IMG/VR virus record: IMGVR_UViG_3300040811_000738
Coordinates: 1-28,890 of that record
Origin: a virus
Direction: 5' to 3' (one strand)
DNA length: 28,890 nucleotides
Below, one piece after another: positions 186-21,517 of the stretch (position 1 is its first letter; every line of letters begins with the position of its first letter). The notes beneath the pieces were generated by a model. It was not told the DNA's origin. It made no database searches and saw nothing but the letters and a program-made list of their open reading frames with translations. Both the position numbers and the translations under genes were made by a program.

Positions 186-824
186 TTATTTTTTATCACT
201 CTGAGTTGCGTGTTTAACTCCCATAATAGTACCTAAAATACTGAAGGAGTTTGTTAATAGGATACCAAATAGATTTGACCACGTTGATTCTATGATTTTA
301 GAATCATGTCCAAAGAGTAGTACAAATACATATAATCCAGTTGTGATTAAACCAACTCCCATAATAACCCATAAAGCAACTCTTACGATATTACCCATCA
401 ATTCAGTTTGTGTTTTCTTTTGGAGTAATGATAGGTCAGTTTCAGCAAGTTCCTTTGCCTGTTCTGCTTTGTACCTCAACCTATCGGCTTCTTCTCTAGC
501 CTGCTCAGCATCTTCTTTAGATTTCTTTGATTGTTCGGCAGAATTTATTGCCTCGTTTAGAGCTTTTTCTAATTGCTTATTAACCCTAACATTTTCTTTA
601 GCGGCTGATTCTAATTCTTTGTTTTGTTTCTGAACTTGTTTGGTTACCTGTAATCGTTTTCTACGAGATTCTATATCTCGTTGTTTACAGATTTTTAAAT
701 ATTCTATAAATTCAGTATCATTACTATCAGCTTTTAAAACTTTTAAGATATTACCCTCTAAGTATATCTTTTTTTCTTTGGCTAATTTTAGTAATTCATC
801 CCTACATATTTTTTTAGCATCCAT
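186..824 (-). CDS. Coiled-coil protein with two C-terminal membrane helices
   Basis: The 212-residue product has three visible parts. Residues about 1-50 form a small charged N-terminal domain. Residues about 55-140 are a long heptad-like, Lys/Glu/Ala/Gln-rich coiled coil. Two hydrophobic segments follow at about 145-170 and 180-203, separated by a short loop, with a short polar tail. This suggests a cytoplasmic coiled coil anchored in the inner membrane. It starts 3 nt after the stop of the next upstream membrane protein and lies in the transcription unit that carries the kinase and receiver genes. I do not recognise the family. It could be an output or scaffold protein for that signalling pair, or a lysis or superinfection protein, but nothing in the sequence decides this. 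Confidence 0.8.
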   Translation of the reverse strand: MDAKKICRDELLKLAKEKKIYLEGNILKVLKADSNDTEFIEYLKICKQRDIESRRKRLQVTKQVQKQNKELESAAKENVRVNKQLEKALNEAINSAEQSKKSKEDAEQAREEADRLRYKAEQAKELAETDLSLLQKKTQTELMGNIVRVALWVIMGVGLITTGLYVFVLLFGHDSKIIESTWSNLFGILLTNSFSILGTIMGVKHATQSDKK

Positions 825-827
825 AAC

Positions 828-1325
828 TTACTTTTCATCTATTAACTCTTTCAATTTAATTTGTTCCAATCTCATATCAAAATTCTCTTTTTGGAGTTTT
901 TCAATCTTCTCTTCCAATTCTTCTCTGTACATCTTAGTGATATCTTGTTGTTCTTTATCACTTTTTTGTGATTCGATTTTTCGGGTGATTCTTCTGATAT
1001 TACTTAATGCACTAATTGCTATCACAATCCAACCCCAATTCATTGGAGTCCAATTAACATCTGCTGTAAAGTGTATAAGAACAAATAGTATTGCCATACC
1101 ACCATACAAATACCCAAACACTCTTCTTCGTTCTAAACTACTATAAACAACTGAGTGTAGAGTACCATATCCGATTAATACACTAATGATTGCGACATAC
1201 CATAAATCAGGAAAGAACTCCGCCTCTAATACAAGTGGTGCAAATATAAGCCATATCAGTCCCTGCAAAACCTCAGTTGGTTCTGAATCGTGATATGTTA
1301 AGATATGTCCTAATTTCTTTATCAT
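828..1325 (-). CDS. Multi-pass membrane protein with C-terminal coiled coil
   Basis: The 165-residue product has about four hydrophobic segments, at about 20-36, 42-58, 70-87 and 95-108. A charged C-terminal tail from about 115 to 165, rich in Lys and Glu, should form a cytoplasmic coiled coil. Its ATG lies 1 nt after the stop codon of the receiver gene, so translation is probably coupled. The family is not recognised. Its layout is the reverse of the next gene's, with membrane helices first and coiled coil second, so the two products might interact through their coils; that is inference. Position directly behind a response regulator makes it a candidate downstream partner. Confidence 0.8.
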   Translation of the reverse strand: MIKKLGHILTYHDSEPTEVLQGLIWLIFAPLVLEAEFFPDLWYVAIISVLIGYGTLHSVVYSSLERRRVFGYLYGGMAILFVLIHFTADVNWTPMNWGWIVIAISALSNIRRITRKIESQKSDKEQQDITKMYREELEEKIEKLQKENFDMRLEQIKLKELIDEK

Positions 1326-1326
1326 T

Positions 1327-1773
1327 TTATTTGTACACTTTAAATGGGTTTGTTTTGTTCACATACCCATCATAATCTTCTCTGAATTCTTCTAATCGTG
1401 GTTCGATATCATCTGATTTTACTAACCAAAACTGAGCCCCGGCTGCTTTGGCTTTCTCAATCTCCTGAGTATCATCTGATGATGATATGATACCAATAAC
1501 ACATCCGTTACCATAATCAGTATTAATTTTACGAATCAATTCAATACCATCAAACGATGAACCAATGATGTTTAAATCAACGAATACACATTCGGGCCTT
1601 TCATGATTTATATCATCTGGAAACCATTCTTTGAATTTCCTATCTGCCTCATCCGAAGAGTTGAGTGCCTCTAATGAAAGAGTTATATCTAAGATACTAC
1701 AAGCATCTTCAAATACTAAGTGGAACAAATCCTCATCATCCACTAGTAAAATTGAGTTAATCATATTGCTCAT
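1327..1773 (-). CDS. Stand-alone receiver-domain response regulator
   Basis: This 148-residue protein is a single CheY-like receiver domain. The conserved acidic pair is D12-D13 in the VDDED motif, the phosphoacceptor is D66 in FVDLN, the switch Ser is S97 or S98 in the IISSS stretch, and the conserved Lys is K119 in LVKS. There is no output domain: after about residue 130 only a short tail remains. It overlaps the end of the histidine kinase gene by 4 nt (ATGA arrangement), so the kinase is its obvious phosphodonor. AAGGA about 10 nt upstream supports the first ATG; a second ATG lies three codons in. As a single-domain receiver it must act by protein contact, for example on the neighbouring membrane proteins, or pass phosphate onward. 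The assignment is secure; the target is unknown. Confidence 0.93.
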   Translation of the reverse strand: MSNMINSILLVDDEDLFHLVFEDACSILDITLSLEALNSSDEADRKFKEWFPDDINHERPECVFVDLNIIGSSFDGIELIRKINTDYGNGCVIGIISSSDDTQEIEKAKAAGAQFWLVKSDDIEPRLEEFREDYDGYVNKTNPFKVYK

Positions 1774-3020
1774 TTTAATTTTATCCTTAATTTAGTTCCT
1801 GGGTTACACTTTTCTGCTGTTATATTAAAACCATGTTCTTTAAGAATTGCTATACAAATATTTAATCCTAAACCAGAACCACTTTCTTTTTGCTCCTTCT
1901 TTCTTATGTATGGTTTTGATAAGTTCTCAAACTCTGTTTGAGTCATACCTCTACCATTATCTTGTACACATAGTGTGTTATCATCTTCCATAAATATCAT
2001 AACAGTTTTCGTACCACTATCATTATACTTCAATCCGTTACGAATTAAATTATCAATGGCTGTACAAAACAATGGTTCGTTTACATCCATTGTGATTAAA
2101 TCATCAATTACGACCTGTTTTGAGTATGATGTTGATGATAAATAATTTTTAAGAATTTCTTTTAAATCAACCTGTTTGGTATCCAACTGAACATCCTCTT
2201 TAACTAAGTTTGTAAACTCTTTTACACCCGCATAAACCTTCTGAGTATGTTTTAATCCCTCATCTAACATTTTAAGTGGTGCTTCAATTCTTAACTCTTT
2301 GATTGTTTCATCATTTAATCTTCTTCTAAGAGATGATAACCCTCTTGGCATATAAGTATTGATACCACTATGCATATCATGTCTTAGAATCTTAGCGGCG
2401 TGTTCTAAGTATGAGTTCTTTTGGTTAACTATATCTTCAGCTTCATGTTGTGCAGTAATATCAGTTGCTATTTTAAGTATTGTATCGTACTCACCCTTTG
2501 AGTTTTTGATTGGTGTATAGTTACCATATAACCATCTCTTTGAACCATCCTTAGCAACTCTCTCAAACTCACCAGTTATACTCTTTCCACTTCGTAGGGT
2601 TTCCCAAAATTCTAAGTATTCTTTACTTTTAGCGTATTCGGGAGTAACCATTGCAGAATGTGGTTTTTTAATCATATCACCCTCTGTACACCCGACAAGT
2701 TTACAAAAGTTATCATTTGCTTTAGTGATGTAACCATCCATTGTTAGTGTAACAACAAGATTAGATTGACTGATACCACCCAACTGAGCGTTTACTTTTT
2801 CTTCCCTAATTTTTATGTTGTTGATGAACTCGCTTACAACCTTAAAGAATGGTGGCATGAAGAATACAACACAGCCCCAACCAAATTTAGCAAGAAATAA
2901 GGTTGGTTCACATATCCCAAATACAATGCATGTTTGAACGGCAAAGAATGTTAACATAATCATTCCAGCAACGCCTAATGATATTTTGGCGTTTAACGAT
3001 ATACCATCCAATGCTTTCAC
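1770..3020 (-). CDS. Membrane-bound PAS-domain sensor histidine kinase
   Basis: The 416-residue protein starts with GTG, directly abutting the TAA of the gene before it. Two hydrophobic segments at about 12-33 and 42-60 anchor it in the membrane with almost no periplasmic domain. A PAS domain with PAC motif spans about 80-190, ending in the KIATDITAQ signature. The H-box is ILRHDMHSG with H214 as likely phosphoacceptor. The HATPase_c domain carries an N-box (DNLIRNGLKYN, 323-333), G1 (DNGRG, 354-358) and G2 (GSGLGLNI, 381-388). All catalytic motifs are intact, so it should autophosphorylate and signal to the overlapping receiver. The short sensor loop suggests that signals are read in the membrane or by the cytoplasmic PAS domain, for example redox, a small ligand or membrane state. 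Its place in the lysis transcription unit is unusual for a phage. Confidence 0.95.
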   Translation of the reverse strand: MKALDGISLNAKISLGVAGMIMLTFFAVQTCIVFGICEPTLFLAKFGWGCVVFFMPPFFKVVSEFINNIKIREEKVNAQLGGISQSNLVVTLTMDGYITKANDNFCKLVGCTEGDMIKKPHSAMVTPEYAKSKEYLEFWETLRSGKSITGEFERVAKDGSKRWLYGNYTPIKNSKGEYDTILKIATDITAQHEAEDIVNQKNSYLEHAAKILRHDMHSGINTYMPRGLSSLRRRLNDETIKELRIEAPLKMLDEGLKHTQKVYAGVKEFTNLVKEDVQLDTKQVDLKEILKNYLSSTSYSKQVVIDDLITMDVNEPLFCTAIDNLIRNGLKYNDSGTKTVMIFMEDDNTLCVQDNGRGMTQTEFENLSKPYIRKKEQKESGSGLGLNICIAILKEHGFNITAEKCNPGTKLRIKLK

Positions 3021-3221
3021 TTATAAATCTGCTTTTTTGAATCCACATTTAGCGAAGAACCATTTAGATGGACAGAACCCAGTCCAAACACCAACGTTCA
3101 ACATAAATGTTACAAAGATTACTACTCCCCAAGATTCTAAAAAATAACCTGATAAGAGTACGATTGACATTAAAAGATACACCATACGTGTATCAGTAAT
3201 ACTATTTAGAAGTTCCTTCAT
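3021..3221 (-). CDS. Small two-helix membrane protein, DUF2892/YgaP-type
   Basis: The 66-residue product has two hydrophobic segments (about 12-28 and 31-45), followed by TGFCPSKWFFAKCG. A Thr-Gly-x-Cys-Pro motif after the second helix and a later Cys is characteristic of the DUF2892 family, the membrane domain also found fused to the rhodanese YgaP. The start is well supported by an AAAGGAG ribosome-binding site inside the end of the holin gene, so the two overlap by 20 nt. The kinase gene follows with no gap. C49 and C57 could be thiol-reactive, which would fit a redox input to the adjacent kinase, but that is speculation. It could alternatively be an antiholin-like regulator. Confidence 0.8.
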   Translation of the reverse strand: MKELLNSITDTRMVYLLMSIVLLSGYFLESWGVVIFVTFMLNVGVWTGFCPSKWFFAKCGFKKADL

Positions 3222-3660
3222 TTCTAGCTCCTTTATGTTTATCTATTCTATCTAAAATTTCATTAAGTAATTCATTTTTAATGAAACCTGCCATAGATGC
3301 ATTTTTAAGAGCCGAAATCAATTGGAATACTAAGAATGGTGCTAATATGGTTTCAGATAACCAACCAGTTCCTTTAAATCCTAATTCAATTGATAGTATG
3401 ACTGTGAGAATCAATTCCCACGCAAAAATGTTTTTCAAAACTCTGAGTGCTTTATATGTTTTAAAACCCTCTCTTTTAATTCCTGCGATGATTCCAAAGA
3501 ACCCATCTAATAACATTACACATATAACGGCGAGGTATTGTTCAGTATTATTTGCGGTTAAATCCATAAAATAACTTCCCATAAAACCACAAAGTGCGGA
3601 TACCCCCATTATAAATTGGGTTACTTTCGATTGTATCATTTCCATCTTATTACATTCCAT
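3202..3660 (-). CDS. Phage holin (holin_4_1-like)
   Basis: The 152-residue product has about three to four hydrophobic segments (about 13-32, 42-60, 74-92 and 100-118). A central LLDGFFGIIAGIKREGF stretch and the following KALRVLKNIFAWEL match the 'Asp-x-x-x-Gly-x-x-x-Ala-x-Lys' pattern of the Bacteroidetes/Firmicutes phage holin_4 type. The C-terminal tail is polar and charged. Holins form membrane lesions at a set time and release endolysin to the cell wall. The endolysin gene lies immediately upstream with one micro-ORF between, which supports the assignment. In-frame ATGs at codons 6 and 8 could serve as alternative starts, giving the dual-start possibility known from lambda S; the sequence does not decide this. 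Confidence 0.82.
   Translation of the reverse strand: MECNKMEMIQSKVTQFIMGVSALCGFMGSYFMDLTANNTEQYLAVICVMLLDGFFGIIAGIKREGFKTYKALRVLKNIFAWELILTVILSIELGFKGTGWLSETILAPFLVFQLISALKNASMAGFIKNELLNEILDRIDKHKGARNEGTSK
3228..3234 (-). promoter_or_regulatory. Strong Shine-Dalgarno site for the DUF2892-type gene
   Basis: AAAGGAG lies 6 nt upstream of the ATG at 3221, inside the holin coding sequence. It fixes the start of the small membrane protein and shows that this phage uses canonical ribosome-binding sites for its late or lysis genes, although many other starts here have weak or absent ones. Confidence 0.8.
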
Positions 3661-3766
3661 AATTAAAAGTTTGGATTAAAGCAACCTTTAACCTAATCAC
3701 CATTCTCTTTCTCCAAGATAATGATTTAAACTCCTTTGTATTAAAAATATCTTCTAATTCTTTCAT
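3650..3766 (-). CDS. 38-codon micro-ORF between endolysin and holin
   Basis: The ATG at 3766-3764 overlaps the endolysin stop (TAATG) and the frame ends at TAA 3652-3650, overlapping the holin start by 11 nt. It thus exactly fills the space between the two lysis genes. The product begins MKELEDIFNTKEFKSLSWRK and continues with a basic, amphipathic stretch (RMVIRLKVALIQTF) but no clear membrane helix. An AGGG sequence lies about 6 nt upstream of the ATG. Coupled start and stop codons on both sides support a real gene. Function is unknown; a small lysis regulator is possible. Confidence 0.6.
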   Translation of the reverse strand: MKELEDIFNTKEFKSLSWRKRMVIRLKVALIQTFNYGM

Positions 3767-4647
3767 TATAACCCTAATAACATATCGATGAGTTCAGGTT
3801 GCGGGAACATATCTACTTTATCTTTACGAGTATTAGTATGTGTCCATGTACCTTTTACTTTTCCGTAATAAGCGTCTTCGTTGAATTCAAAGGCATCCGC
3901 ACCTTTTTCTTTAATTAAAGCAGGCAATCCGGCTCTGACATCAATATTATCTCTTTCAGCAATCCATAAAATCCATAAGCGCATTGCATCAATTTGTGCA
4001 TCAGAATATCTGTGCCATAAACTGTGTCCTCTAAATGGTTTTGCTAATTTAACGATTTGTGATTCATGAGCCGTAGTACCGGCATAAGTTTTACCGTCAA
4101 TTATGTATCCAAAATTATTTACCTCTACACCTACTGAATGGGTATGCATATGTTGTGAACCATTCTTTCCTAAGTGCCATCCGTAACCACCTTCTGGAAA
4201 TGCTTGTACCATTACACCGTCATATTTGGTATCGTTACCTTTTACTGATTGACCACCTAATACGAATTCAGTTGCAACTGCACCTCTTGAATCTCTACCC
4301 CAGTTATCAATTGTCTTAAAGGGATTATGCCATCCGGCAGTATGGTGTAGGAAAACGTACTCTTTATTTGTTGGACCTGATTTGTACTCACCAGGTGGAA
4401 GGAAGTGTCTATTTACGATTAATCCGTTTTCCGTTGTGTAAACCTTTTCCGAATTATCAGTAGTAGCAAGACCCATAGCATCCCAAGTGGAAGGGCCCAC
4501 AATACCATCAGCTGCCAATCCATTTTTAGATTGCCACTCTTTAACTGCTTTTTCAGTACCTTTACCGAAGATGCCATCTGCGCCAATTTCAAGAAACTCC
4601 TGTAATTCTTTTACTTCAGTTCCACGCGAACCAACTCTTAATAACAT
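3766..4647 (-). CDS. Endolysin: peptidoglycan-binding domain plus N-acetylmuramoyl-L-alanine amidase
   Basis: The 293-residue protein has an N-terminal PG_binding_1 domain (about 5-60; GADGIFGKGT and AADGIVGPST are its two repeat signatures). An Amidase_2 (T7 lysozyme/PGRP-type) catalytic domain follows at about 75-285. Visible zinc-site candidates are H101 or H102 in FLHHTAG and H270 in TWTHTNTRKDK, with the Asp/Lys tail typical of this family; VGVEVNN supplies the conserved Glu. It should cleave the bond between N-acetylmuramic acid and L-alanine in the host wall. There is no signal peptide, so it needs the holin encoded just downstream. GGAG 7 nt before the ATG supports the start. Placing the binding domain at the N-terminus is common in endolysins of Gram-negative hosts. 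Confidence 0.95.
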   Translation of the reverse strand: MLLRVGSRGTEVKELQEFLEIGADGIFGKGTEKAVKEWQSKNGLAADGIVGPSTWDAMGLATTDNSEKVYTTENGLIVNRHFLPPGEYKSGPTNKEYVFLHHTAGWHNPFKTIDNWGRDSRGAVATEFVLGGQSVKGNDTKYDGVMVQAFPEGGYGWHLGKNGSQHMHTHSVGVEVNNFGYIIDGKTYAGTTAHESQIVKLAKPFRGHSLWHRYSDAQIDAMRLWILWIAERDNIDVRAGLPALIKEKGADAFEFNEDAYYGKVKGTWTHTNTRKDKVDMFPQPELIDMLLGL

Positions 4648-4664: not shown

Positions 4665-4970
4665 TTACTTACGTTTTCCTTGACAATGTGCTCTCTGAGA
4701 AAACCCTTTTGGATTATTACAATCTATACTTCTTTTGTATTTATCCGACCATTCCTCATCGATTTTTTTAATTAATACTTCCAACTCCATCTCAACTTTG
4801 TTTGGTAATCCCTTATGTTTGGTTGATGCGTATTTTTTTAAATCTGATTTTGTCATTCCTTTAGCTGTATCTCTAATATCTTTAGATACATCTGAAGGTT
4901 TAACATCACCTTTTTTAAGTGCATATGCCAACCCCATATATTTTTGTTGAGCTTTAGATTTAGCGGGCAT
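4665..4970 (-). CDS. Small basic protein, DUF3008-like N-terminus
   Basis: The 101-residue product begins MPAKSKAQQKYMGLAYALKK and contains KYASTKHKGLP; both resemble the DUF3008 family of short basic phage and bacterial proteins of unknown function. The C-terminus, with a Cys pair around CNNPKGFSQRAHC, looks like an added tail of the kind seen in some phage head-associated proteins. GGAG lies 6 nt before the ATG, so the start is well supported. It sits 17 nt upstream of the endolysin. Function unknown; nucleic-acid binding is plausible from its lysine content. Confidence 0.75.
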   Translation of the reverse strand: MPAKSKAQQKYMGLAYALKKGDVKPSDVSKDIRDTAKGMTKSDLKKYASTKHKGLPNKVEMELEVLIKKIDEEWSDKYKRSIDCNNPKGFSQRAHCQGKRK

Positions 4971-11206: not shown

Positions 11207-11767
11207 CTAATTATTTATTCGTTTTAATATCCTAAGACCAGGAAATATTTCTATATCCTTATCCAATACCCATTCATCTGTTGTAGATAAAAAATCATCA
11301 GTTGCATCTTTTACTCCTTTAAATTTTATAATATCATGTACAATGATATACTTACTTACAACTTCATTAAATAATTCTAATTCTTTTCTGACGTGTGGTC
11401 TTTGATGTAAACCATCTATGAATAATAAATCAACATCAGCTAATTCCATTCGATGTGAATTCATTTCTTCTACTACTACTTCAATATTATTTTCCTCAGC
11501 GATACTTTTGTATATTGGTAAAATTTCTCTACAAGGATTAAAACTAATATCATTTAATGTAATTTTTTTAGGGTTTGATTTTAACCAAGCCCAAGATGAT
11601 AAAAGTCCTTGAACTCCTATCTCAACAATGTGGCCACCTTCACATAGTTTTCCATACTCATATAAGTCATTCATAAAATGACCGATATATTTTAATGGGC
11701 CATCTACGTTTCCTATCTTATTAGCTACTCTATTAAAGTTATTATCTATTTCTTCTTGTCTTTTCAT
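11207..11767 (-). CDS. Class I SAM methyltransferase (Methyltransf_24/CmcI-like)
   Basis: Glycine-rich SAM loop at HIVEIGVQGLLSSWAW, followed by KITLNDISF (second strand) and DLLFIDGLHQRPHVRKEL, a signature of the Methyltransf_24 and cephalosporin-hydroxylase-like group, where the Asp and His hold a metal. YIIVHDI matches the fifth strand. It is probably an O-methyltransferase acting on a sugar or small intermediate. I prefer the ATG at 11767 (MKRQEEID), 4 nt after the upstream stop, to the one at 11797, whose ten extra codons lie inside the upstream gene. A GAGAAAG sequence precedes the chosen start. Confidence 0.78.
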   Translation of the reverse strand: MKRQEEIDNNFNRVANKIGNVDGPLKYIGHFMNDLYEYGKLCEGGHIVEIGVQGLLSSWAWLKSNPKKITLNDISFNPCREILPIYKSIAEENNIEVVVEEMNSHRMELADVDLLFIDGLHQRPHVRKELELFNEVVSKYIIVHDIIKFKGVKDATDDFLSTTDEWVLDKDIEIFPGLRILKRINN

Positions 11768-11771
11768 AATT

Positions 11772-12839
11772 TTATACTTTCTCAAAATAAGTATCATCTA
11801 CTTTTACTTCACTCAAAATATCATTCATCCAAAAACACGCTATCAATGGTGTATCACCTATGTTTTTTAGATTATGAGTATAATAAACTGGTGTATCAAA
11901 TACAACCCCATCATCACCATTTATAGTGTAAGTCTTTACATCTTCTGTACCAACTTTTCTCATACTTACAGATGCCTTACCTTCTAATATACAAAACCTT
12001 TCAATTCTTTTAGTATGGAAGTGATTTCCTCTAATATGTTTAGTATCTGGTTTTGTAGTAGAATAAAATATTTGACCTGGTATTTTTGATATTACTAACT
12101 CTGATAATTTACCTCTATTATCTTCATTTAATTTTATAGGAAACAATCTACAATCATCATCTACATATGACCTAAAAGTATTAAATAGATTTAAATCAAA
12201 ATTACAATCAATGTAGGGTATTTTATTTTCTGTTAAATATTGCTTTCTCCAAAGGATTAGTTTGTTATAAACATATTCTACGGGTACAATATCAGTATAT
12301 TCAATTTCATCTCTTTCACCATTTATTACTTCTAATAACTGAATACACAAATCCTCTACATAAAGTAAGTTTACATTATCAGAGCTATATGTTACATCTT
12401 CACCTTTTATAATCTTATCACAAAATGTTGCAATAAATGAGTTGTAGTTTGGTTTACAAAACGGGCCAAAAATATTTGGTAGCTTTACTGATTTAAAATC
12501 ACCACCCCATTCCATAAAATTTTTAATGTTATCTCTTCTCCATTTACCATATAAATCATCTGAGTTTTCGTGGATTGATGATGTGTATATAATTTTAGGT
12601 TTATGGTTTATATCGTTTAATGCTTTTAACAAACTTAAAGTAGATTCTCTATTATCAGAATAAAGTTTATCTAAATTACCTCTATTACGTTCTCGCATAT
12701 GAACGATTACATCACATTTTTTAAGTTCTGTATGCGTTGGTTCTTTTGATAATCTAATTACATCAACATCTGATTTATAATTTAGATAAACCCATAAATG
12801 GTATCCCACAAATCCAACTCCGTTTATACCAACTACCAT
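11772..12839 (-). CDS. CapF/FnlB/WbjC-type reductase with C-terminal cupin
   Basis: The 355-residue length and two-domain layout match CapF of capsule synthesis. Residues 1-245 form an extended short-chain dehydrogenase with a GVGFVG cofactor loop at 7-12, YTSS at 85-88 and a YGKWR segment at 97-101. Residues about 250-355 form a cupin with RGNHFHTKRIERFCILEG, whose His residues match the CapF metal site. CapF enzymes reduce the 4-keto sugar formed by CapE to UDP-2-acetamido-2,6-dideoxy-L-talose. The CapE homologue lies immediately upstream and overlaps by 7 nt. The usual Tyr-x3-Lys pair is Tyr97-x3-Arg101 here, so catalysis by the reductase domain may be altered. Confidence 0.82.
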   Translation of the reverse strand: MVVGINGVGFVGYHLWVYLNYKSDVDVIRLSKEPTHTELKKCDVIVHMRERNRGNLDKLYSDNRESTLSLLKALNDINHKPKIIYTSSIHENSDDLYGKWRRDNIKNFMEWGGDFKSVKLPNIFGPFCKPNYNSFIATFCDKIIKGEDVTYSSDNVNLLYVEDLCIQLLEVINGERDEIEYTDIVPVEYVYNKLILWRKQYLTENKIPYIDCNFDLNLFNTFRSYVDDDCRLFPIKLNEDNRGKLSELVISKIPGQIFYSTTKPDTKHIRGNHFHTKRIERFCILEGKASVSMRKVGTEDVKTYTINGDDGVVFDTPVYYTHNLKNIGDTPLIACFWMNDILSEVKVDDTYFEKV

Positions 12840-13780
12840 ACGTTATTTCTTTTTAAAAATTCAGTTGTATCTTTTGTTAAATGTAATGCTGAGTTGAATG
12901 GTTTGTGGTCGTAACTTTCATTTATTCTTTCATATCCAATTAGATAGTAATTATCATATTCTTTAGTACGTTGAAACTCAATCTCACTAATCATATCTTC
13001 ATGTAGTTTTTCACCATCTTTTATTGGAACTTTATGAAAATCAATATTATCTTTACCAAGTGATTTAGCTATTGCTTTTGCCAAATCAATAATCTTTAAT
13101 GATTCTATTTTAGGGATTGCAATTTTACCATGTGAATCTTTGTGGAAGTATGCCCATTCAATTAAATCAATCGCCTGGTCTAATGTAAGTAAAAATCTAG
13201 TCATACCAAAATCTGTAATTGGTAATGATGTTGCACCATCTTTTATCTTTTTTGTAAATACTGGAATTATAGAACCCGTAGAGTTTAATACATTACCATA
13301 CCTAGCCATTACCACTTTGATATCAGATTGTTGTTTTGCAAAGTTTACATACAATTGTTCGGCAATTGCCTTCGACATTCCATATACATTTACAGGTTTA
13401 CACGCTTTATCAGTTGATATAAAAACCAATGTTTTTATTTTGTGATTACATTCTTGTATTGCATCTATTAAATTCTGATGTCCTATAATATTTGTTTGTA
13501 CGGATTCGTAACTATTATCTTGACATACCCAGACTGTTTTAACTGCAGCTGTATTGATAACAACAGTGGGTTTAAACTCATATAAGTTTCTTACTAAAGA
13601 TGGTTTATCTTTAACATCACCTAACCGATATGTAACATTCGGATAATTTACTCGCATTGCCTCTTGTTTATGTTCACTACGAGATAATACCATAATTTCA
13701 TTATCGTTATAGTATCTATCAGTTAACGTACTACCTAAAGCACCTGTACCACCGATTACTAATATTCTTTCGTTTTTCAT
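12833..13780 (-). CDS. UDP-GlcNAc 4,6-dehydratase/epimerase (CapE/FnlA/WbjB family)
   Basis: The 315-residue enzyme has the NAD(P) loop GGTGALG at 10-16, STDK at 122-125, and the catalytic YGMSK with Tyr133 and Lys137. The MARYGNVLNSTGSIIPVF and ITDFGMTRFLLT segments are hallmarks of inverting 4,6-dehydratases of the FlaA1/PseB/CapE group. It should convert UDP-GlcNAc to a 4-keto-6-deoxy sugar. Pairing with a CapF-type gene directly downstream points to the L-FucNAc/L-PneNAc branch rather than pseudaminic acid. The C-terminal part (SEIEFQRTKEYDNYYLIGYE) resembles the CapE C-terminal region. Overlaps of 4 and 7 nt with its neighbours indicate coupled translation. Confidence 0.88.
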   Translation of the reverse strand: MKNERILVIGGTGALGSTLTDRYYNDNEIMVLSRSEHKQEAMRVNYPNVTYRLGDVKDKPSLVRNLYEFKPTVVINTAAVKTVWVCQDNSYESVQTNIIGHQNLIDAIQECNHKIKTLVFISTDKACKPVNVYGMSKAIAEQLYVNFAKQQSDIKVVMARYGNVLNSTGSIIPVFTKKIKDGATSLPITDFGMTRFLLTLDQAIDLIEWAYFHKDSHGKIAIPKIESLKIIDLAKAIAKSLGKDNIDFHKVPIKDGEKLHEDMISEIEFQRTKEYDNYYLIGYERINESYDHKPFNSALHLTKDTTEFLKRNNVW

Positions 13781-14073
13781 ATCTCTTCTATTCGTTTTGT
13801 TTTATCACAAATTAATAAATCATATGATGGTTTTTCACCAACACTTAAATGATGATACTTACACCCCCAATCATCTAATTGAGATTTCGTTAGTTCGTAA
13901 TAATCTATACCACTATATGACCCCCTTGCAGTCCAATATGTAATTTCATTTCCAGCATCATATAGTTTATTTATTTTATCTATATTTTCAATCAATGGTG
14001 TAGGATTCTTATAGCCCAATCTATCACCATTGTGAATGCATATTGTTTCATCTATATCTACAAATATTCTCAT
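13777..14073 (-). CDS. Minimal HAD-family phosphatase
   Basis: The 98-residue protein carries HAD motif I at the start (FVDIDETI, nucleophile D6 and acid/base D8), motif II at YWTARG and the late Lys/Asp of motifs III-IV in GEKPSYDLLICDK. It has no cap domain. Such short HAD proteins are common in capsule and LPS clusters and probably act on phospho-sugars. Its position between an ATP-grasp ligase and a UDP-sugar dehydratase, overlapping both by 4 nt, supports that. The substrate is unknown. Confidence 0.85.
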   Translation of the reverse strand: MRIFVDIDETICIHNGDRLGYKNPTPLIENIDKINKLYDAGNEITYWTARGSYSGIDYYELTKSQLDDWGCKYHHLSVGEKPSYDLLICDKTKRIEEI

Positions 14074-14990
14074 ACTACTATTTCATTAAAATATCTTACC
14101 ACAGTTATTTCCTTTGGAGAATTAATATGCACATCTTTACCATTTACTATTTGTAGTATTATTTCTACAAAGTTAACACCTGCTAATCTACTAAAATAAG
14201 TACCACCGCCTAATCGTGGGTTTACTTCTATAAATTTAGGATTTCCGTTTTCATCTTCTTTTAGCTGAATACATACTGGCCCTTTTATATTTAAATGGTG
14301 TGCCAAATCAGTACACATTTTTTCTATGGTCTTATTTATTATAACCTTACCCTTTACAGAGATTCCGGCTTTAACTTGCAATCGTTCTCTTACAACACAA
14401 CTTAATACGTTACAATCTAAATCAGATAATAAATCTACTGTATATTCTTTCCCTGGCAGATACGATTGAAATATATAATCTCCAGTTATTGATTCTAAAT
14501 CACGATTTGATTTACATAAATGAATACCTCTACTACCACTCCCAACTTTTGGTTTGGCAATTACAGGTAAATTTAAATCATAACCATTTAAACTAGTCTT
14601 AGGAAGAACATCACTAAACTTAGAAACACAAAATTCATAAAACCTCATTTTATTTTGGCAGTTCAGAATTGTATCGTAATCGGACATGAAAACCGAAATA
14701 CCCATAGATTCTAATTCACTTTTATGTTTAGAAAAATGTTTAATATCACTATCACCTGTTGGTAAAATTAAAGTAACTTTTTCTTTTTTGATAATATCAA
14801 ACACAACATCCCAATATTCATCTGATTCTGAGTTTGGTACTGTGTAACTCACATCTGATAATAACCCACCCACAGCTAACGGGTCTAAATCAATAGAAAC
14901 AATACGGCATTTATAAGGTATACCCCTAATAGATTTAATTACACCCACCGCAGCAGGGCCGCCCGAACAAGTTAATAGTATCGTATTCAT
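14070..14990 (-). CDS. ATP-grasp ligase (CarB-like)
   Basis: The 306-residue protein has an N-terminal pre-grasp domain (TILLTCSGGPAAVGVIKSI), an ATP-binding part with PVIAKPKVGSGSRGIHLCK (Lys and glycine-rich loop) and the metal/catalytic segment PKFIEVNPRLGGGTYFS near the end. ATP-grasp enzymes join a carboxylate to an amine or thiol through an acyl-phosphate. In glycan loci such CarB-like proteins are thought to attach amino-acid-like or other acyl groups to amino sugars; applied here, this is inference. Its start shares a base with the stop of the preceding gene. Confidence 0.85.
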   Translation of the reverse strand: MNTILLTCSGGPAAVGVIKSIRGIPYKCRIVSIDLDPLAVGGLLSDVSYTVPNSESDEYWDVVFDIIKKEKVTLILPTGDSDIKHFSKHKSELESMGISVFMSDYDTILNCQNKMRFYEFCVSKFSDVLPKTSLNGYDLNLPVIAKPKVGSGSRGIHLCKSNRDLESITGDYIFQSYLPGKEYTVDLLSDLDCNVLSCVVRERLQVKAGISVKGKVIINKTIEKMCTDLAHHLNIKGPVCIQLKEDENGNPKFIEVNPRLGGGTYFSRLAGVNFVEIILQIVNGKDVHINSPKEITVVRYFNEIVV

Positions 14991-15916
14991 TATGTAAGAT
15001 ATATTATTTTATCAACAAAATTACCAGTCTTAAACGGGTCTTTTCTTGGTTTACCATTTAATCTCTCACCATGTAGAGGTCCATAGAATTTATTACCTAA
15101 TACAAACGTATCTGAATACTTAGCGCACCATAAAGTCATACCACTTTCATTACCAACATTTACTATAGCGTTACAACGAAGATACATTTGTTGTCTGATG
15201 TTAAGATTCATTGGTTTTACTGATGTATAATTTTTTATAAAATTCAAATTAGTTTCTTCAATTGGAGCTTCTCCATAATAAAACCAATGGATATCACCAT
15301 ATTCTTTTATTTTATCTACCAACAAGTGAGTATCTGCGGTTGACCCATATGTTGATGATACACCAATATACCCATAATTTTTGATATTTCCAAGCAATTC
15401 TTTACCAAAATTACTTTCTTCTTCGGAAAAGTATATATCTGGCGTTGTATCTGATAATTCTTCATTATTAAATTGCCAAAACTTCATCATTTGTGTTGTT
15501 AATGGAATCTTTGAATTTTCAGAATCAAATATCCTATAATGGTCGTGGAAAACCTCACCATCCACATAATCCACAAACTCATCTACATATGGGTTGTTTT
15601 TAAAAATATCTTCAGTAACTTTAGTAGCATCATATAAACCATACCCCCAATTCTGCATCATATCACCAAATATATCTTTTAACATTTTAGAAGATGGTAC
15701 ATATACTTTACAATTTGGATATTTTGATTTTAGTATTCTTGGTATGCCTGATATGATACACCAATCTCCAATACCATGACAGGTTCTCATAACTAAGAAC
15801 TCACCAGCTTCTAAGTATTCATCAGGTATATACATTGGATTTTTTTTATCAAACCCAACTAAATCTACTTCACCTGCGCTACTTAATTTGTTACTATTAA
15901 TTCTAAAAAAATGCAT
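14990..15916 (-). CDS. GT9-like (ADP-heptose-type) glycosyltransferase
   Basis: The 308-residue protein has CHGIGDWCIISGIPRILKSKYP, matching the N-terminal 'GxGD' loop and helix of the heptosyltransferase (GT9) fold, and CNAIVNVGNESGMTLWCAKY in the second domain, matching the family's 'xxVGxESGxxHxA' nucleotide-binding region. It could transfer a heptose or related sugar. A leader of about 35 residues precedes the first strand. It starts 1 nt after the fusion oxidoreductase gene. The family match is from motif pattern only, so the donor sugar is unknown. Confidence 0.7.
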   Translation of the reverse strand: MHFFRINSNKLSSAGEVDLVGFDKKNPMYIPDEYLEAGEFLVMRTCHGIGDWCIISGIPRILKSKYPNCKVYVPSSKMLKDIFGDMMQNWGYGLYDATKVTEDIFKNNPYVDEFVDYVDGEVFHDHYRIFDSENSKIPLTTQMMKFWQFNNEELSDTTPDIYFSEEESNFGKELLGNIKNYGYIGVSSTYGSTADTHLLVDKIKEYGDIHWFYYGEAPIEETNLNFIKNYTSVKPMNLNIRQQMYLRCNAIVNVGNESGMTLWCAKYSDTFVLGNKFYGPLHGERLNGKPRKDPFKTGNFVDKIIYLT

Positions 15917-15917
15917 A

Positions 15918-17660
15918 TTAGCTCTTTTTTATATAATTGCACAACTCATTTGCAGTATCAACTGCGGTTGATATTTTACCTGAAAATATTAGATATTTAC
16001 TTTTAGATTCTTTATCAACTATACTAGGTCTTGCATCATCATAATCTCTATTAGATAATACAGTTCTGATTGTAAACATAGAACCAATGTGTTCTACACC
16101 ATCAACATTCGTAAAAAACTTACTTAACGTTTCTTTAAATTTACTCCATTTTGTAATTGATGGATTTTTTACAATACCTTTATTTAATAACCCTTCTAAC
16201 TTTTTAGGTATCTCAGGCATCTTACCTGTATTTGTGTAATGGATTGCATGAACTACATTACCAACAACATGATACTCGGTATCAGAATATGGGTCTATAC
16301 ACATAAATGGGCCATCCATAATTACAATACCCATCCCCTTATATTTTTCAGGCAACTTAATCAATGGTTTTTCACAAATCTCAAATTGATAATCTGATTG
16401 TTTCTCTGAATTCTGATTTAAATTAGAATATGTTGCATTTACTACATAATCATAATCCAACTCATCTATTCGTTTGAATTCTTGATTATACAATATTTTT
16501 ATGTTAGAATCATTCAATCTAGCTTTACACATATCATATAACTTTTTAGGGTCAAACAACCCCTCATCAACTTTATATAACTTTTCTATATGTGTATCTA
16601 CTAGCAAATCACTCACAACTTCTTCATAGTTCAAACCCACATTATCCATAAAAGATTCATAATCATTTGATGTTACTTTTGAACCAAATGATGCAATTGC
16701 ATAATGTTGATTTGATGATTCTAATTCACATGGATATTCTTCCAAAAATGTTTCAGTACCATGTTTCGCAGATACAGCAGTATCAACACTTCTTGGATAA
16801 TGATATCCCCTATGTAATCTATATTGGTTTATAGAACTCGCGTTTTGTAAAATATCATTATTCTTTTCAAATAGTGTTACATCAAAGTCATCATCCAATT
16901 TAAGTGCTGATGTAACTCCAAAAATACCCGCTCCAATAACAGCTACTTTTGGTTTATGTTCATTCAACCTATCCAATATAGAATTTACATCTAATGCCAT
17001 TTGGTTGTTTGATTCAAATGATACTTTACCATCAAATACCTGATGAAACATCGATGTTAGTAAATTTAGATTTGTTTTAAAATCAAAAGTATATCCACCA
17101 CCAAATGCTTGTTTAGTTTTCTTTTTACTAACTCTATCATAGTAGAATTCAGTATCACCAATACTAAACTCCTTTTCATTTACTCTATTAGTTTTAATAT
17201 GAATATCACCTGATAAATCATATCCTAAGTGTAGTGCTATATATAAATCGTGATACGATAAATTATTAAAAATATTATCGTTAAACGAGCCATACTTTCT
17301 CCACTCAAATCTAAGAACTTTAGGGTCATATTGTGCAATCCACCTTAATGTTGGATGATACAAAAACACATCATCAACATATAATTTTACATTGTGTTTT
17401 TTTGATAAATCTACTAACTCTTTAGATTGTTCATATGTTGGAGTCATTGGTTTTTCAATAAAAACATTTATACCCCTTTGAATAAAATCTTTTGCTAATT
17501 GATAGTGAGATTCGGTTGAAGATGCAACGACTACCCAATCGATATCATATGTAATATCCATTTCCCTACCAGTGAAGAATTTAATATCACAAAATGATTG
17601 AAGTGTTGAGTGTATTTTTTTACCAAAATACCCCTTACCAATTATACCTACTTTATACAT
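15918..17660 (-). CDS. Fusion of Gfo/Idh/MocA dehydrogenase and FAD-dependent oxidoreductase
   Basis: The 580-residue protein joins two redox enzymes. Residues 1-230 are a Gfo/Idh/MocA sugar dehydrogenase with NAD loop VGIIGKGYFGK (4-14) and the catalytic FIEKPMTP motif (Glu69-Lys70-Pro71). Residues 237-580 are a DAO-type flavoprotein with FAD loop VAVIGAGIFGVTSA (239-252), an acidic Glu265 ending the second strand and the substrate-region INQYRLHRGYHYPR. The frame is open throughout, with no internal stop. Such a fusion would suit two successive oxidations of one sugar. It lies between a GT9-like and a GT2 gene. A plausible role is making a keto- or amino-sugar branch; this is inferred. Confidence 0.85.
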   Translation of the reverse strand: MYKVGIIGKGYFGKKIHSTLQSFCDIKFFTGREMDITYDIDWVVVASSTESHYQLAKDFIQRGINVFIEKPMTPTYEQSKELVDLSKKHNVKLYVDDVFLYHPTLRWIAQYDPKVLRFEWRKYGSFNDNIFNNLSYHDLYIALHLGYDLSGDIHIKTNRVNEKEFSIGDTEFYYDRVSKKKTKQAFGGGYTFDFKTNLNLLTSMFHQVFDGKVSFESNNQMALDVNSILDRLNEHKPKVAVIGAGIFGVTSALKLDDDFDVTLFEKNNDILQNASSINQYRLHRGYHYPRSVDTAVSAKHGTETFLEEYPCELESSNQHYAIASFGSKVTSNDYESFMDNVGLNYEEVVSDLLVDTHIEKLYKVDEGLFDPKKLYDMCKARLNDSNIKILYNQEFKRIDELDYDYVVNATYSNLNQNSEKQSDYQFEICEKPLIKLPEKYKGMGIVIMDGPFMCIDPYSDTEYHVVGNVVHAIHYTNTGKMPEIPKKLEGLLNKGIVKNPSITKWSKFKETLSKFFTNVDGVEHIGSMFTIRTVLSNRDYDDARPSIVDKESKSKYLIFSGKISTAVDTANELCNYIKKS

Positions 17661-17663
17661 AAC

Positions 17664-18284
17664 TTATAACGTATCGTAATACTCGTTTTGTTTTTCTTGT
17701 CTTTCGATTGTTTTTGGATGATGTAGTGCTAACTCTTCTTGAAGTGGTAAATGTGATATGGTTTTGAATCCATCTAATTGTTCGTGCACTTTATTAATCC
17801 ATTTGATATTATCTGAGTTTTTATACAATCTCCATTGCATATCCGGCCAGTTTACCCAACCATCTGAATTTACGTTCCAACCCCACTTTTGAATATGCTC
17901 ATCAGTAAGTCCTGCGACCGTATTTACTCTTGGAACTAAGATTACATCTACATCATTCAATTCTAATATACCATGTATATTTTCCATCAACCCAATATCG
18001 GGTAGTTCATCTGCATCAATCTGAAAAATGTAATCACCACTACACAATGAATTTAGTTTATTTTTCATATTACCAAAATGGCCATCGAATTCATTTGGAT
18101 ACCATTGGAACTCTGCGTTTACAGAATGACTTCTTAGGTACTCTTCTACTGCTTTACTACCATTTTTTGAATCAAATATTATTACAATCTCATCATTAGA
18201 TTGTTTGTGTTTTAATAAAAATGATACTAATCTTTGAATTTCTACGTGTTCATTACAAACTGGAATTGCGTAACTAATCTTCAT
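17664..18284 (-). CDS. Family 2 glycosyltransferase
   Basis: The 206-residue protein is a compact GT-A domain: ISYAIPVCNEHVEIQRLVSF at the start (family 2 nucleotide-binding strand), EIVIIFDSKNG, and the metal-binding YIFQIDADELPD. The conserved NKVHEQLDGF segment near the end is typical of GT2 enzymes resembling WaaE/KdtX (lipopolysaccharide core beta-1,4-glucosyltransferases). It has no membrane segment. It starts 1 nt after the preceding gene stops and probably adds a hexose to the glycan made by the block. Substrate not determinable. Confidence 0.87.
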   Translation of the reverse strand: MKISYAIPVCNEHVEIQRLVSFLLKHKQSNDEIVIIFDSKNGSKAVEEYLRSHSVNAEFQWYPNEFDGHFGNMKNKLNSLCSGDYIFQIDADELPDIGLMENIHGILELNDVDVILVPRVNTVAGLTDEHIQKWGWNVNSDGWVNWPDMQWRLYKNSDNIKWINKVHEQLDGFKTISHLPLQEELALHHPKTIERQEKQNEYYDTL

Positions 18285-18285
18285 T

Positions 18286-18801
18286 TTACTTTACTTTGTT
18301 TTGTTCTTGCTGCTCTCGTTCTCTTGCTTCAGCCTCTAATTGTTTTCTACGTTCATCTGCAGATGGAATCTTATCAAATTTACCCCAATCATAGTTTACT
18401 GCCTGAACTGATTTAATATCCAATAGATTGAATGTACGATACGCAGCCTTCAGTTGTTTTTCGGTTTTAATCTCTGATGTATAAAACACCTTAGATGCTT
18501 CATTGATTTGAATTTTAGCCAAATCTAATCGTTTAACCTTTGAAGATTTTGATATCACCTCATTATAGATTTCTGCTATTTCTAATAATTTACCAGGAGA
18601 TACTGCATCTAAGGATAACCCATGTAACTTACCTTCAATTGTATTAGGCCATTTTGGCTGTAGTACAAATACGAGATACAACTTTGTACCTGTATCTTTT
18701 TTGTACTTAATTTTAACCACCATACCCCGCTCCATCTTACTTTTCGTAATTGGAGTGGGGTCTGATGTTTTTCTTAGATGTGTATTGTAGTATCCTGGCA
18801 T
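18286..18801 (-). CDS. Hypothetical 171-residue protein
   Basis: Residues about 1-65 contain MERGMVVKIKYKKDTGTKLY and HGLSLDAVSPGKLLE, which look like a small beta-barrel domain. A helical middle follows, then SADERRKQLEAEAREREQQE, a charged C-terminal coil. The N-terminal pattern is reminiscent of small proteins encoded by T4-like phages whose function I cannot name. It is not obviously a sugar enzyme although it lies inside the glycan block, and its stop and start codons touch those of its neighbours. It may be a virion or morphogenesis protein. Confidence 0.7.
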   Translation of the reverse strand: MPGYYNTHLRKTSDPTPITKSKMERGMVVKIKYKKDTGTKLYLVFVLQPKWPNTIEGKLHGLSLDAVSPGKLLEIAEIYNEVISKSSKVKRLDLAKIQINEASKVFYTSEIKTEKQLKAAYRTFNLLDIKSVQAVNYDWGKFDKIPSADERRKQLEAEAREREQQEQNKVK

Positions 18802-20141
18802 TACTTAACCTTTTTTAATTTAGGTAATTTAACCTCAGGTTTCTCTTCTTTATTAACCTTCTTTAACTTTGGTAGTTTTAAACCAACCTGTTGTGGTTGT
18901 TCTTTGATATCCATCGTACTCTCATCAAACAATACACCAATACGTTCTATCATTTTATCAAATGAGAAGTTATCTTTACTATACTTACGATGTTTACGAG
19001 ATTTCTCTAAATACTTTTTATAGTTATCTACCATATCTCTCATAATAGAACCACCTTGATTGTAATCTGCAGTAAACCACTCACCCTCTTTTACTAAGAA
19101 TTTATCTGCTGCTGATTTGTGAACCTTTTCCAACTTACCATTAATAACTGAAACGTATTCTGGATTAATGAAATCCATATGTCCACTCCACCCACTAACA
19201 ATCATTGGTTTACCACTAATAGTTGCTTCCAATAAAGGTCTACCAAAACCTTCACCTCTTGTAAATGATACATGAGCCTTAACCTTTGGGTGATTATATA
19301 ATGCGTTCATCTCCCAATCACTTAAATCTGAATGTAGTAAGTAAATATTAGGTAACATTTTACCACCCACACTATCTTTTATTTGTTCGATGATTTTTCT
19401 CAACTTAACTCTATCTACTAATGATGTAGAACCTGCTGATGTTTTAAGAATTAGGGCTGGTTGTTTTTTCTTATTTTTAAATGCTTGTAAAAATGTCCAA
19501 ATTAAACCACTCACATTTTTTCTATCTTGTTGAAAATCCCCCTTTAACCAATGTCCCACAAATAAGAACGCAAAATCTTCGTTTATATTTCTTAGTACGT
19601 TATTAATACGTTCTTCAGATGGTGCTTTCTCATTATATACTTCTAAATCAATACCCTCAAATAGAACCTCAACTGGTACATTACATTTCAGTTGGCCCAT
19701 TAATTGATTTGTTTTCTCATCCTTCTTATCATATACAGAACTCATAATCACTTGCTTTGTAAATTCAGATGATACCAATACCTTATTCATACGATTGATA
19801 CCTTCTAAACACTCAGGTGGCATAATTGTAGTTTCTACACCAGCAGTTAAGCCAATACTGTACTTACCAACCGGCTGAAACTCATTAGGTACTGTGATTT
19901 GAATCCACACATCTGGTTGAGTTTCCATCTTCTCAGTAATGATTCTACTTAACAAATCATCATCTTCATCTTCTTTGAGAGCATCCATAGCCGTCTGTCC
20001 CCATCTCTGAGAAAGGATTCGGATATCCCAATTTGGTTTTGATTCAATCAAACCTCTTACAAAATCCCTACTTCGTGCACCATATCCACTTCGAGTTGAG
20101 ATAGGACAACTCACTACACATAATTTTTTTATATCTTCCAT
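18801..20141 (-). CDS. GT4 glycosyltransferase with repeated lysine-rich tail
   Basis: The 446-residue protein is a GT-B enzyme. The second domain carries the E-x7-E motif FTRGEGFGRPLLEA (Glu297 and Glu305) and a downstream turn (GKPMIVSGWSGHMDF). The first domain begins VVSCPISTRSGYGARSRDF, with a glycine-rich acceptor loop. Retaining GT4 enzymes transfer from UDP-, GDP- or ADP-sugars. The C-terminal about 28 residues contain KLPKLKKV twice, separated by a charged linker, which is not part of the catalytic fold and may tether the enzyme to membrane or protein. It overlaps the second GT4 gene by 13 nt, so the two are probably co-translated. Confidence 0.86.
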   Translation of the reverse strand: MEDIKKLCVVSCPISTRSGYGARSRDFVRGLIESKPNWDIRILSQRWGQTAMDALKEDEDDDLLSRIITEKMETQPDVWIQITVPNEFQPVGKYSIGLTAGVETTIMPPECLEGINRMNKVLVSSEFTKQVIMSSVYDKKDEKTNQLMGQLKCNVPVEVLFEGIDLEVYNEKAPSEERINNVLRNINEDFAFLFVGHWLKGDFQQDRKNVSGLIWTFLQAFKNKKKQPALILKTSAGSTSLVDRVKLRKIIEQIKDSVGGKMLPNIYLLHSDLSDWEMNALYNHPKVKAHVSFTRGEGFGRPLLEATISGKPMIVSGWSGHMDFINPEYVSVINGKLEKVHKSAADKFLVKEGEWFTADYNQGGSIMRDMVDNYKKYLEKSRKHRKYSKDNFSFDKMIERIGVLFDESTMDIKEQPQQVGLKLPKLKKVNKEEKPEVKLPKLKKVK

Positions 20142-21517
20142 AATACTACTTCATTTTTTGGTTGCCATTTATCAAACACACCATCCATTGAATCAATGAA
20201 TCGTTGTCCCATATGTCTTGCACTCATTCCACTTTCTACTGAATTCATCCACTCAGAACCTTCTAACCCACATTCAGTTCTACGTTCAGATGGAGTATCA
20301 TACCATTGTCTTAATGCCTTAGCAGCATCTTCATAAGAACATCTATCATCAAAAATGTATGGAGTTACAGGTGAACCTTGTAATGAACGATTGGATGGCC
20401 AAATTGGGTTTACCCAACTACCCCAACTAAGATTCTCAGGTAGTTTCTTACGATTGTGAAGTGAACCTAGCTCAACATATTGGTCTGCAGTAATATACTT
20501 ACCATCGATAGTAAAGTTACATTGGTCTTGCAATCCACCCGTTACGTTTACTACGATTGGTGTACCTGCTTTTACTGATTCACAAGTTGCTAATCCAAAC
20601 CCTTCGTTTGATGCCATATTGATTGTAACATCTGCAAGGTTGTATAGAACATTTAAATCTTCAGTTGAGAACTGAGAGTTTGTGAATTGTACATCATAAT
20701 CAGGACAAACGTTCTTAACCACTTCTGGCAAATCAGTACCATTCGGGTCTACTTGCTGAGTATGGAATAGAAGAACTACATCTTTTGACTGTTCTTTGGT
20801 AAGTGTATCACAAAACTCTTTATATGCTAATACAACATCACCTGGATTCTTTCTACGAATGTTTCGGTTGTTATAAAGAACTACAAACTTCTTATCACCA
20901 ATACCCAATTTGGATTTCATATCAATTACCTTCTGATACTCATTTGAATCAGATGGAATTGGTTTAAACTTTTCAGATACACCATGTGGTACATATTGAA
21001 TCTGCCAATCTTCCATTGGCATTCCAAATTTATCCATCACTCTCGTATTGATACCATAGGTTTGTTTAGAAATACCCATTAATAAATCACAACTTCCATA
21101 GAATGGTGCGTTCCATTGTGGGTCTGGTAAATCATCCCAAATGTTATAATAGAAGATAGGAATGTGTCTACGGATTTCATCTTCCATAGCATATAACCAA
21201 TCCCAAAAACGAGGGTCGGTGAAGTGTAGAATTGCATCTGGGTTCTCAGTAGTTATTAATTGTCTAATTAAGTCCTGATTACCATACCCACTCATTGGAA
21301 TGATACGAACATTTGCGTTATCAATACCCGCCTCTTCATTTACTGAATCTGATACATCGAAGAATTTACCCTCATCTGGATGTTTAACTGCTGCACCTAC
21401 CTGAATCCAATCGTATTTATGTGAGGTATGTAGTACAATCTCCTTTGACATGGTTGCAATACCACTATGCAACCTTAAATCATCGGATAATAATAGAATC
21501 TTTTTCTTTTTACTCAT
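20129..21517 (-). CDS. GT4 glycosyltransferase
   Basis: The 462-residue protein is a GT-B enzyme of a type frequent in large T4-like phages. The N-terminal domain starts KKKKILLLSDDLRLHSGIAT with the glycine loop. VLYNNRNIRRKNPGD marks the start of the C-terminal domain, where the phosphate-binding Arg and Lys lie. ASNEGFGLATCESVKAGTP contains the E-x7-E pair (Glu305 and Glu313). It is the first gene of the glycan block: a promoter-like site ends 52 nt upstream, and AAGG lies about 8 nt before the ATG. Its sugar donor is unknown. Together with the overlapping second GT4 it may build a disaccharide. Confidence 0.87.
   Translation of the reverse strand: MSKKKKILLLSDDLRLHSGIATMSKEIVLHTSHKYDWIQVGAAVKHPDEGKFFDVSDSVNEEAGIDNANVRIIPMSGYGNQDLIRQLITTENPDAILHFTDPRFWDWLYAMEDEIRRHIPIFYYNIWDDLPDPQWNAPFYGSCDLLMGISKQTYGINTRVMDKFGMPMEDWQIQYVPHGVSEKFKPIPSDSNEYQKVIDMKSKLGIGDKKFVVLYNNRNIRRKNPGDVVLAYKEFCDTLTKEQSKDVVLLFHTQQVDPNGTDLPEVVKNVCPDYDVQFTNSQFSTEDLNVLYNLADVTINMASNEGFGLATCESVKAGTPIVVNVTGGLQDQCNFTIDGKYITADQYVELGSLHNRKKLPENLSWGSWVNPIWPSNRSLQGSPVTPYIFDDRCSYEDAAKALRQWYDTPSERRTECGLEGSEWMNSVESGMSARHMGQRFIDSMDGVFDKWQPKNEVVLWKI

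Follow-up and report, generated by a model that had tools for sequence, protein, structure and literature searches.

Why would a phage carry a complete two-component signalling pair of its own, and what would such a pair act on? The question is raised by the window analysed here, a linear stretch of 28,890 bases (positions 1-28,890 of IMG/VR record IMGVR_UViG_3300040811_000738) in which genes for a histidine kinase and a receiver lie beside lysis genes. Phages are commonly viewed as borrowing or sabotaging the signalling of their hosts, and a complete, predicted phosphorelay of the phage's own departs from this view. In a survey of jumbo phages, a receiver-like domain was never found together with histidine kinases (PMC7824862). 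The original prediction for this locus was that of a two-gene system embedded in a lysis cassette.

A histidine kinase and a receiver with intact catalytic residues

The kinase gene (1770-3020, minus strand, GTG start) encodes 416 aa that comprise a two-TM hairpin, a PAS domain, a DHp domain with H214 and an HATPase domain. The protein qualifies as a histidine kinase by its Pfam match to HATPase_c (E=9e-15) with N, G1 and G2 motifs and by a two-helix DHp hairpin with a conserved histidine; PAS_3 is also matched (E=4e-13). Residues H214, D215, N324, N328, D354, G356, G358, G383 and G385 are invariant among 46 diverse relatives, confirming the membrane-bound PAS kinase with intact motifs that was first proposed from the window. 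The H box is atypical (RHDMHSGINTY.PRG), and because of this divergence the protein does not match Pfam HisKA (PF00512). In the AlphaFold model, TM1 (residues 9-33) is followed by a 7-residue turn, TM2 with a linker helix (41-86), the PAS domain (88-187), the DHp hairpin bearing H214 and finally the CA domain (282-414). Foldseek matches this model to PAS/LOV kinases and to HK853.

The receiver gene (1327-1773, minus strand) overlaps the kinase gene by 4 nt and encodes a 148-aa single-domain, CheY-like receiver (Response_reg, E=3e-8) with D66 as the predicted phospho-acceptor. The catalytic residues attributed to it are all present, D12, D13, D66, S97 and K119 being invariant in 24 diverse relatives; with the DD, D, T/S and K residues in place and no output domain, it belongs with the single-domain (CheY/DivK-like) response regulators. 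An output as a transcription factor was rejected, since the receiver has no DNA-binding domain. Mean column identity is 64% for the kinase versus 84% for the receiver (the latter over 24 diverse members). Measured against relatives, the kinase gene has a dN/dS of 0.07-0.16 and the receiver gene one of no more than 0.04; by this measure both genes are under strong purifying selection.

Such pairs had been called rare in phages, and for cultured phages this was borne out: among GenBank phages no record has the receiver at a threshold of E<=0.01, the kinase finds only generic PAS/ATPase similarity, and the third gene described below is not found. Nor is the system described in the open-licence literature on phage and viral histidine kinases and two-component systems, an absence that is in itself no proof.

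A constant third gene

The two-gene view was correct about the pair but incomplete, as it missed a constant partner gene, p212 (186-824, minus strand). Scans of viral contigs returned at least 597 relatives of the kinase and, with the p212 alignment, at least 527, and the combination of kinase, receiver and p212 occurs in more than 500 IMG/VR contigs. When gene order was compared over 125 loci, the receiver was present in 125, the kinase in 122 and p212 in 121; the next commonest gene family reached 57. p212 was never observed without the receiver. Among the loci retrieved by using p212 as bait, the receiver is always upstream, and so is the kinase wherever the contig reaches far enough. Each of 32 long contigs carries one module. 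The distances among kinase, receiver and p212 are correlated (r=0.75, 0.58 and 0.55; Mantel p<=0.002), a correlation that may partly reflect shared phage ancestry. The triad is constant while its genomic surroundings vary, other copies following ribonucleotide reductase genes or sitting among baseplate/virion genes. As judged by these gene-order comparisons, the constant unit is a three-gene, virus-associated module rather than a pair of genes peculiar to a single lysis cassette.

Hosts commonly have two-component systems, and the pair could in principle be an ordinary bacterial one that was acquired by chance or placed here by an assembly join; the original prediction had itself allowed for such a join and for loss of the pair in close relatives. 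Relatives keep the pair, and near-identical copies of the module recur in independent metagenome contigs, with the same arrangement in loci L001-L006. This recurrence, along with the low dN/dS, argues against an assembly join, which we rejected given the same synteny in independent assemblies. The hundreds of viral contigs, the single module per long contig, the strong purifying selection and the phage-specific output part of the third gene likewise speak against a chance passenger. The results already contradict this explanation, and we give it practically no credence.

p212 is the likely output of the module. It consists of a conserved N-terminal domain of ~75 aa, in which E23, G24, K28, Y42, D50, R54, R57, K62, Q65, Q67 and N68 are invariant, a long coiled coil of variable length among relatives, and a strongly conserved C-terminal two-helix membrane hairpin (consensus STWSN.FGILLTN.FSI.GTIMGVK). 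In the structure model, a 135-residue helix (37-171) continues into TM1, a turn and TM2. Searches of Pfam, PHROGs, NCBIfam and PADLOC gave no credible match of p212 to a known holin, defence or structural protein, the membrane hairpin matched no family of known function, and the sole match in a BFVD structure search was an uncharacterised phage homologue (A0A6J5PRT3). Between receiver and p212 the window also encodes a 165-aa membrane protein with a coiled-coil-like C-terminal tail (828-1325, minus strand), which is confined to the window's closer relatives (27 loci).

Sensor input of the kinase

The input part of the kinase varies among 135 distinct kinases. Most have one PAS domain, a few have two PAS or GAF+PAS, and about 28 have no PAS; these last are roughly 300 aa long (one is cut by the contig end), and in the examples that we read the membrane hairpin is joined directly to the DHp domain. 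The same TM hairpin and kinase core are shared by all of these variants. On this sequence comparison, the constant sensor of the kinase is a membrane hairpin with a very short loop, and PAS and GAF are exchangeable.

In most loci a small membrane protein is encoded just upstream of the kinase, either of the window's type or of a 53-aa type. The window's version (3021-3221, minus strand) is a two-TM protein whose gene abuts the kinase gene and overlaps the holin gene; its relatives weakly resemble YgaP-like_TM/DUF4395, and it is a frequent rather than a constant accessory. The 53-aa membrane protein takes its place in locus L047 (5825-5992) and in 26 similar loci. The constant hairpin and the small membrane protein upstream together favour a signal linked to the membrane, to which PAS or GAF domains would add optional inputs. 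Sensing of membrane or redox state had been proposed for the pair; its membrane part is upheld by the constant hairpin, but redox as a general signal is unsupported, because many relatives have no PAS domain.

Two TM helices separated by a very short loop are typical of intramembrane-sensing histidine kinases of the LiaS and BceS type. The module kinase resembles these in the short modelled loop of its hairpin (7 residues) and in the small membrane proteins next door, and its PAS-less forms have no other sensor domain. The window kinase has the two helices and the short loop but departs from this type by its PAS domain; moreover, the module has no DNA-binding response regulator and no recognised partner of the LiaF or BceAB kind.

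Two contigs have an additional gene between kinase and receiver. In one of 163 kb it encodes a 541-aa protein rich in WYLNGKLHREDGPA repeats (L065, 7245-8870); in the other, of 155 kb and with a GAF+PAS kinase, it encodes a 174-aa protein that resembles YceI on visual inspection only (L180, 3006-3530).

Relation to lysis genes

In the window the pair does lie just behind genes for a tiny membrane protein (the two-TM protein above), a holin (3202-3660, minus strand; Phage_holin_4_1, PF05105 E=3e-5) and an endolysin (3766-4647, minus strand; peptidoglycan-binding plus Amidase_2), the amidase gene ending 105 nt upstream of the holin gene. Holin and endolysin are neighbours of the module and not constant parts of it. 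A DUF3008 protein (4665-4970) adjoins the endolysin and is kept in the window's closer relatives. The notion of a lysis transcription unit found no support, because the whole 28.9 kb reads one way (nearly all of the window's genes are on the minus strand) and the cassette has no T4 late-type promoter TATAAATA.

This neighbourhood suggests a module that advances or delays lysis, a purpose akin to that of T4 lysis inhibition, in which p212 would serve as a holin, antiholin or membrane brake under phospho-control; holin and endolysin adjoin the module here, and p212 and the small upstream proteins are all membrane proteins. Of 104 distinct modules, 46 have lysis genes no more than 5 kb away. Flanks are full, with 4.5 kb or more on each side, in 40 distinct modules; of these, 12 have a holin or endolysin within 5 kb by a strict count and 18 by a broad one that adds a DUF5675 protein and a small two-TM protein as lysis genes, but 22 have no recognised lysis gene within this distance. 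A PF05105 holin occurs in 10 of the 32 long contigs, including those of 75 and 93 kb, and is always ~2.5 kb or nearer to the receiver, a count that is not independent because the contigs are related and partial. In two other long contigs, M15 endolysins lie ~25 and ~35 kb from the module. p212 itself matched no holin family and does not classify as a holin, and homology of its hairpin to the neighbouring two-TM protein (c5) was unsupported (hhalign probability 2%). By these counts the lysis link is real in some lineages without being inherent to the module: membership of a lysis cassette stands for the window and for fewer than half of the relatives (strictly 12/40, broadly 18/40), but the invariant partner of the pair is p212, not holin or endolysin. 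We regard control of lysis as a possible, if doubtful, general function.

The module's location is independent of lysis genes in many phages, and a membrane hairpin appears both as the constant sensor and as the output. These features would also suit a module that detects envelope damage or a second phage, with p212 blocking entry or sealing the membrane. No anti-phage defence model was credibly matched in a PADLOC search, and we consider such a guarding role unlikely.

Bacterial relatives and a domain swap

Among 84,980 species genomes, relatives of the module were found on three contigs, two of them from Bacteroidetes MAGs and a third that is binned as an uncultured bacterium but is apparently phage. 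This third contig (L136) has the phage form of the module along with phage-like genes and is probably phage DNA in a MAG. Samples of Bacteroidota genomes contained no further relatives. A widespread cellular origin was rejected, as just two Bacteroidetes MAGs were found.

That relatives of the kinase-receiver pair exist in Bacteroidetes at all, and that some phage proteins, such as PIT4, interfere with the two-component systems of hosts (PMC10714779), would be in keeping with a phage kinase or receiver that feeds or drains host pathways. Rewiring of host signalling, which had been raised for the pair, is thus conceivable but not favoured: the pair has a partner of its own in the strictly linked, dedicated third gene, and host relatives are limited to 2 MAGs of ~85,000 species, with none in the Bacteroidota samples. 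We hold this explanation to be improbable.

One of the two Bacteroidetes MAGs (L134, CANIVF010000058.1) retains the order kinase-receiver-third gene. Like the phage module, this locus has the kinase core (with the same RHDMHSGIN), the receiver and the N-terminal domain of the third gene; unlike it, the kinase is multi-PAS and has no phage hairpin. The third gene encodes a 349-aa protein whose first ~75 residues align with the p212 N-terminus (15 invariant columns over 18 sequences), and the remainder is HisKA plus HATPase, replacing the membrane hairpin. In both settings the receiver is accompanied by the N-terminal domain, but the output part is a kinase in the bacterium and a membrane hairpin in phages; this swap, seen in one bacterial genome, suggests that the domain is the receiver's docking site and that p212 is the output.

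Proposed mechanism

We propose that the module is a phage-borne, three-gene His-Asp system in which a phospho-switch would act on the membrane effector p212 and not on transcription. In this scheme the membrane hairpin of the kinase, with its exchangeable PAS/GAF domains, would sense the state of the infected cell, the kinase would phosphorylate H214, and the phosphate would pass to D66 of the receiver. The phosphorylated receiver, having no DNA-binding output, would bind p212 at its conserved N-terminal domain; the resulting change would pass along the coiled coil to the C-terminal hairpin, which could alter either the inner membrane itself or a partner protein at that site. The final effect may be on lysis timing, maintenance of a sealed membrane or exclusion of other phages. 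We infer phosphotransfer, receiver-p212 binding, the direction of signalling and the final effect, the contact between receiver and p212 being proposed because of gene linkage and the domain swap in one bacterial genome; on balance we lean towards this proposal. The presence of a conserved unit in hundreds of T4-type fragments argues that these viruses probably monitor some condition of the infected cell and respond at the membrane.

A bolder form of this proposal, which we advance tentatively, is a virus-specific relay in which the phosphorylated receiver would directly gate p212, the same docking domain being wired to a second kinase in the bacterium. Direct gating, if true, would let the phage decide quickly, and without transcription, on the moment to breach, seal or guard the membrane of its host.

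Known systems offer partial parallels. In DivK-DivL-CckA circuits, a receiver without an output domain binds a partner that controls a membrane-located complex (PMC4505887). The window receiver also has no output domain and putatively signals by partner binding, but its genes are viral and its putative partner is a coiled-coil protein with a membrane hairpin, not a kinase; the L134 version alone has a kinase as third gene. In T4 lysis inhibition, the antiholins RI and RIII act with holin T, the state of the infected cell being sensed and the response given at the membrane (PMC11413866, PMC6832632). The proposed module would similarly link cell-state sensing to a membrane response in a T4-type phage, but T4 uses no kinase or receiver and the module's genes were not found in GenBank phages. 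With interchangeable sensors and a fixed core, the triad is kept by selection across a large uncultured T4-type branch. With only three genes to test, it opens to experiment the question of how a phage reads host state and times its next step, and it offers a compact, putatively receiver-controlled membrane device.

Phage lineage and hosts

The window can be assigned to the T4-type phages by the replication genes at its right end, which encode the T4-like sliding clamp gp45 and clamp loader gp44 and gp62; the gp23 capsid gene is present in 7 of 45 module-bearing records. The window's clamp loader matches 2,688 GenBank phage records and is below 50% identity to any of these counterparts, and its first 12 kb have no DNA match among GenBank phages. 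Because of this divergence we place the window, from its sequence, in a deep uncultured branch of T4-type phages.

Shine-Dalgarno-like motifs precede only 7 of the window's 38 genes, compared with 8% of random 15-base stretches. Their scarcity and the module relatives in Bacteroidetes point weakly to Bacteroidota as hosts.

Elsewhere in the window, a sugar/surface-polysaccharide block (11207-21517) contains a nucleotide-sugar epimerase, a phosphoheptose-isomerase-like protein and two glycosyltransferases, among which lie several large proteins that have no match. The module also occurs, as one copy, in a jumbo-size contig of 297 kb with the T4-type capsid gene gp23 (L026, IMGVR_UViG_3300048121_001678).
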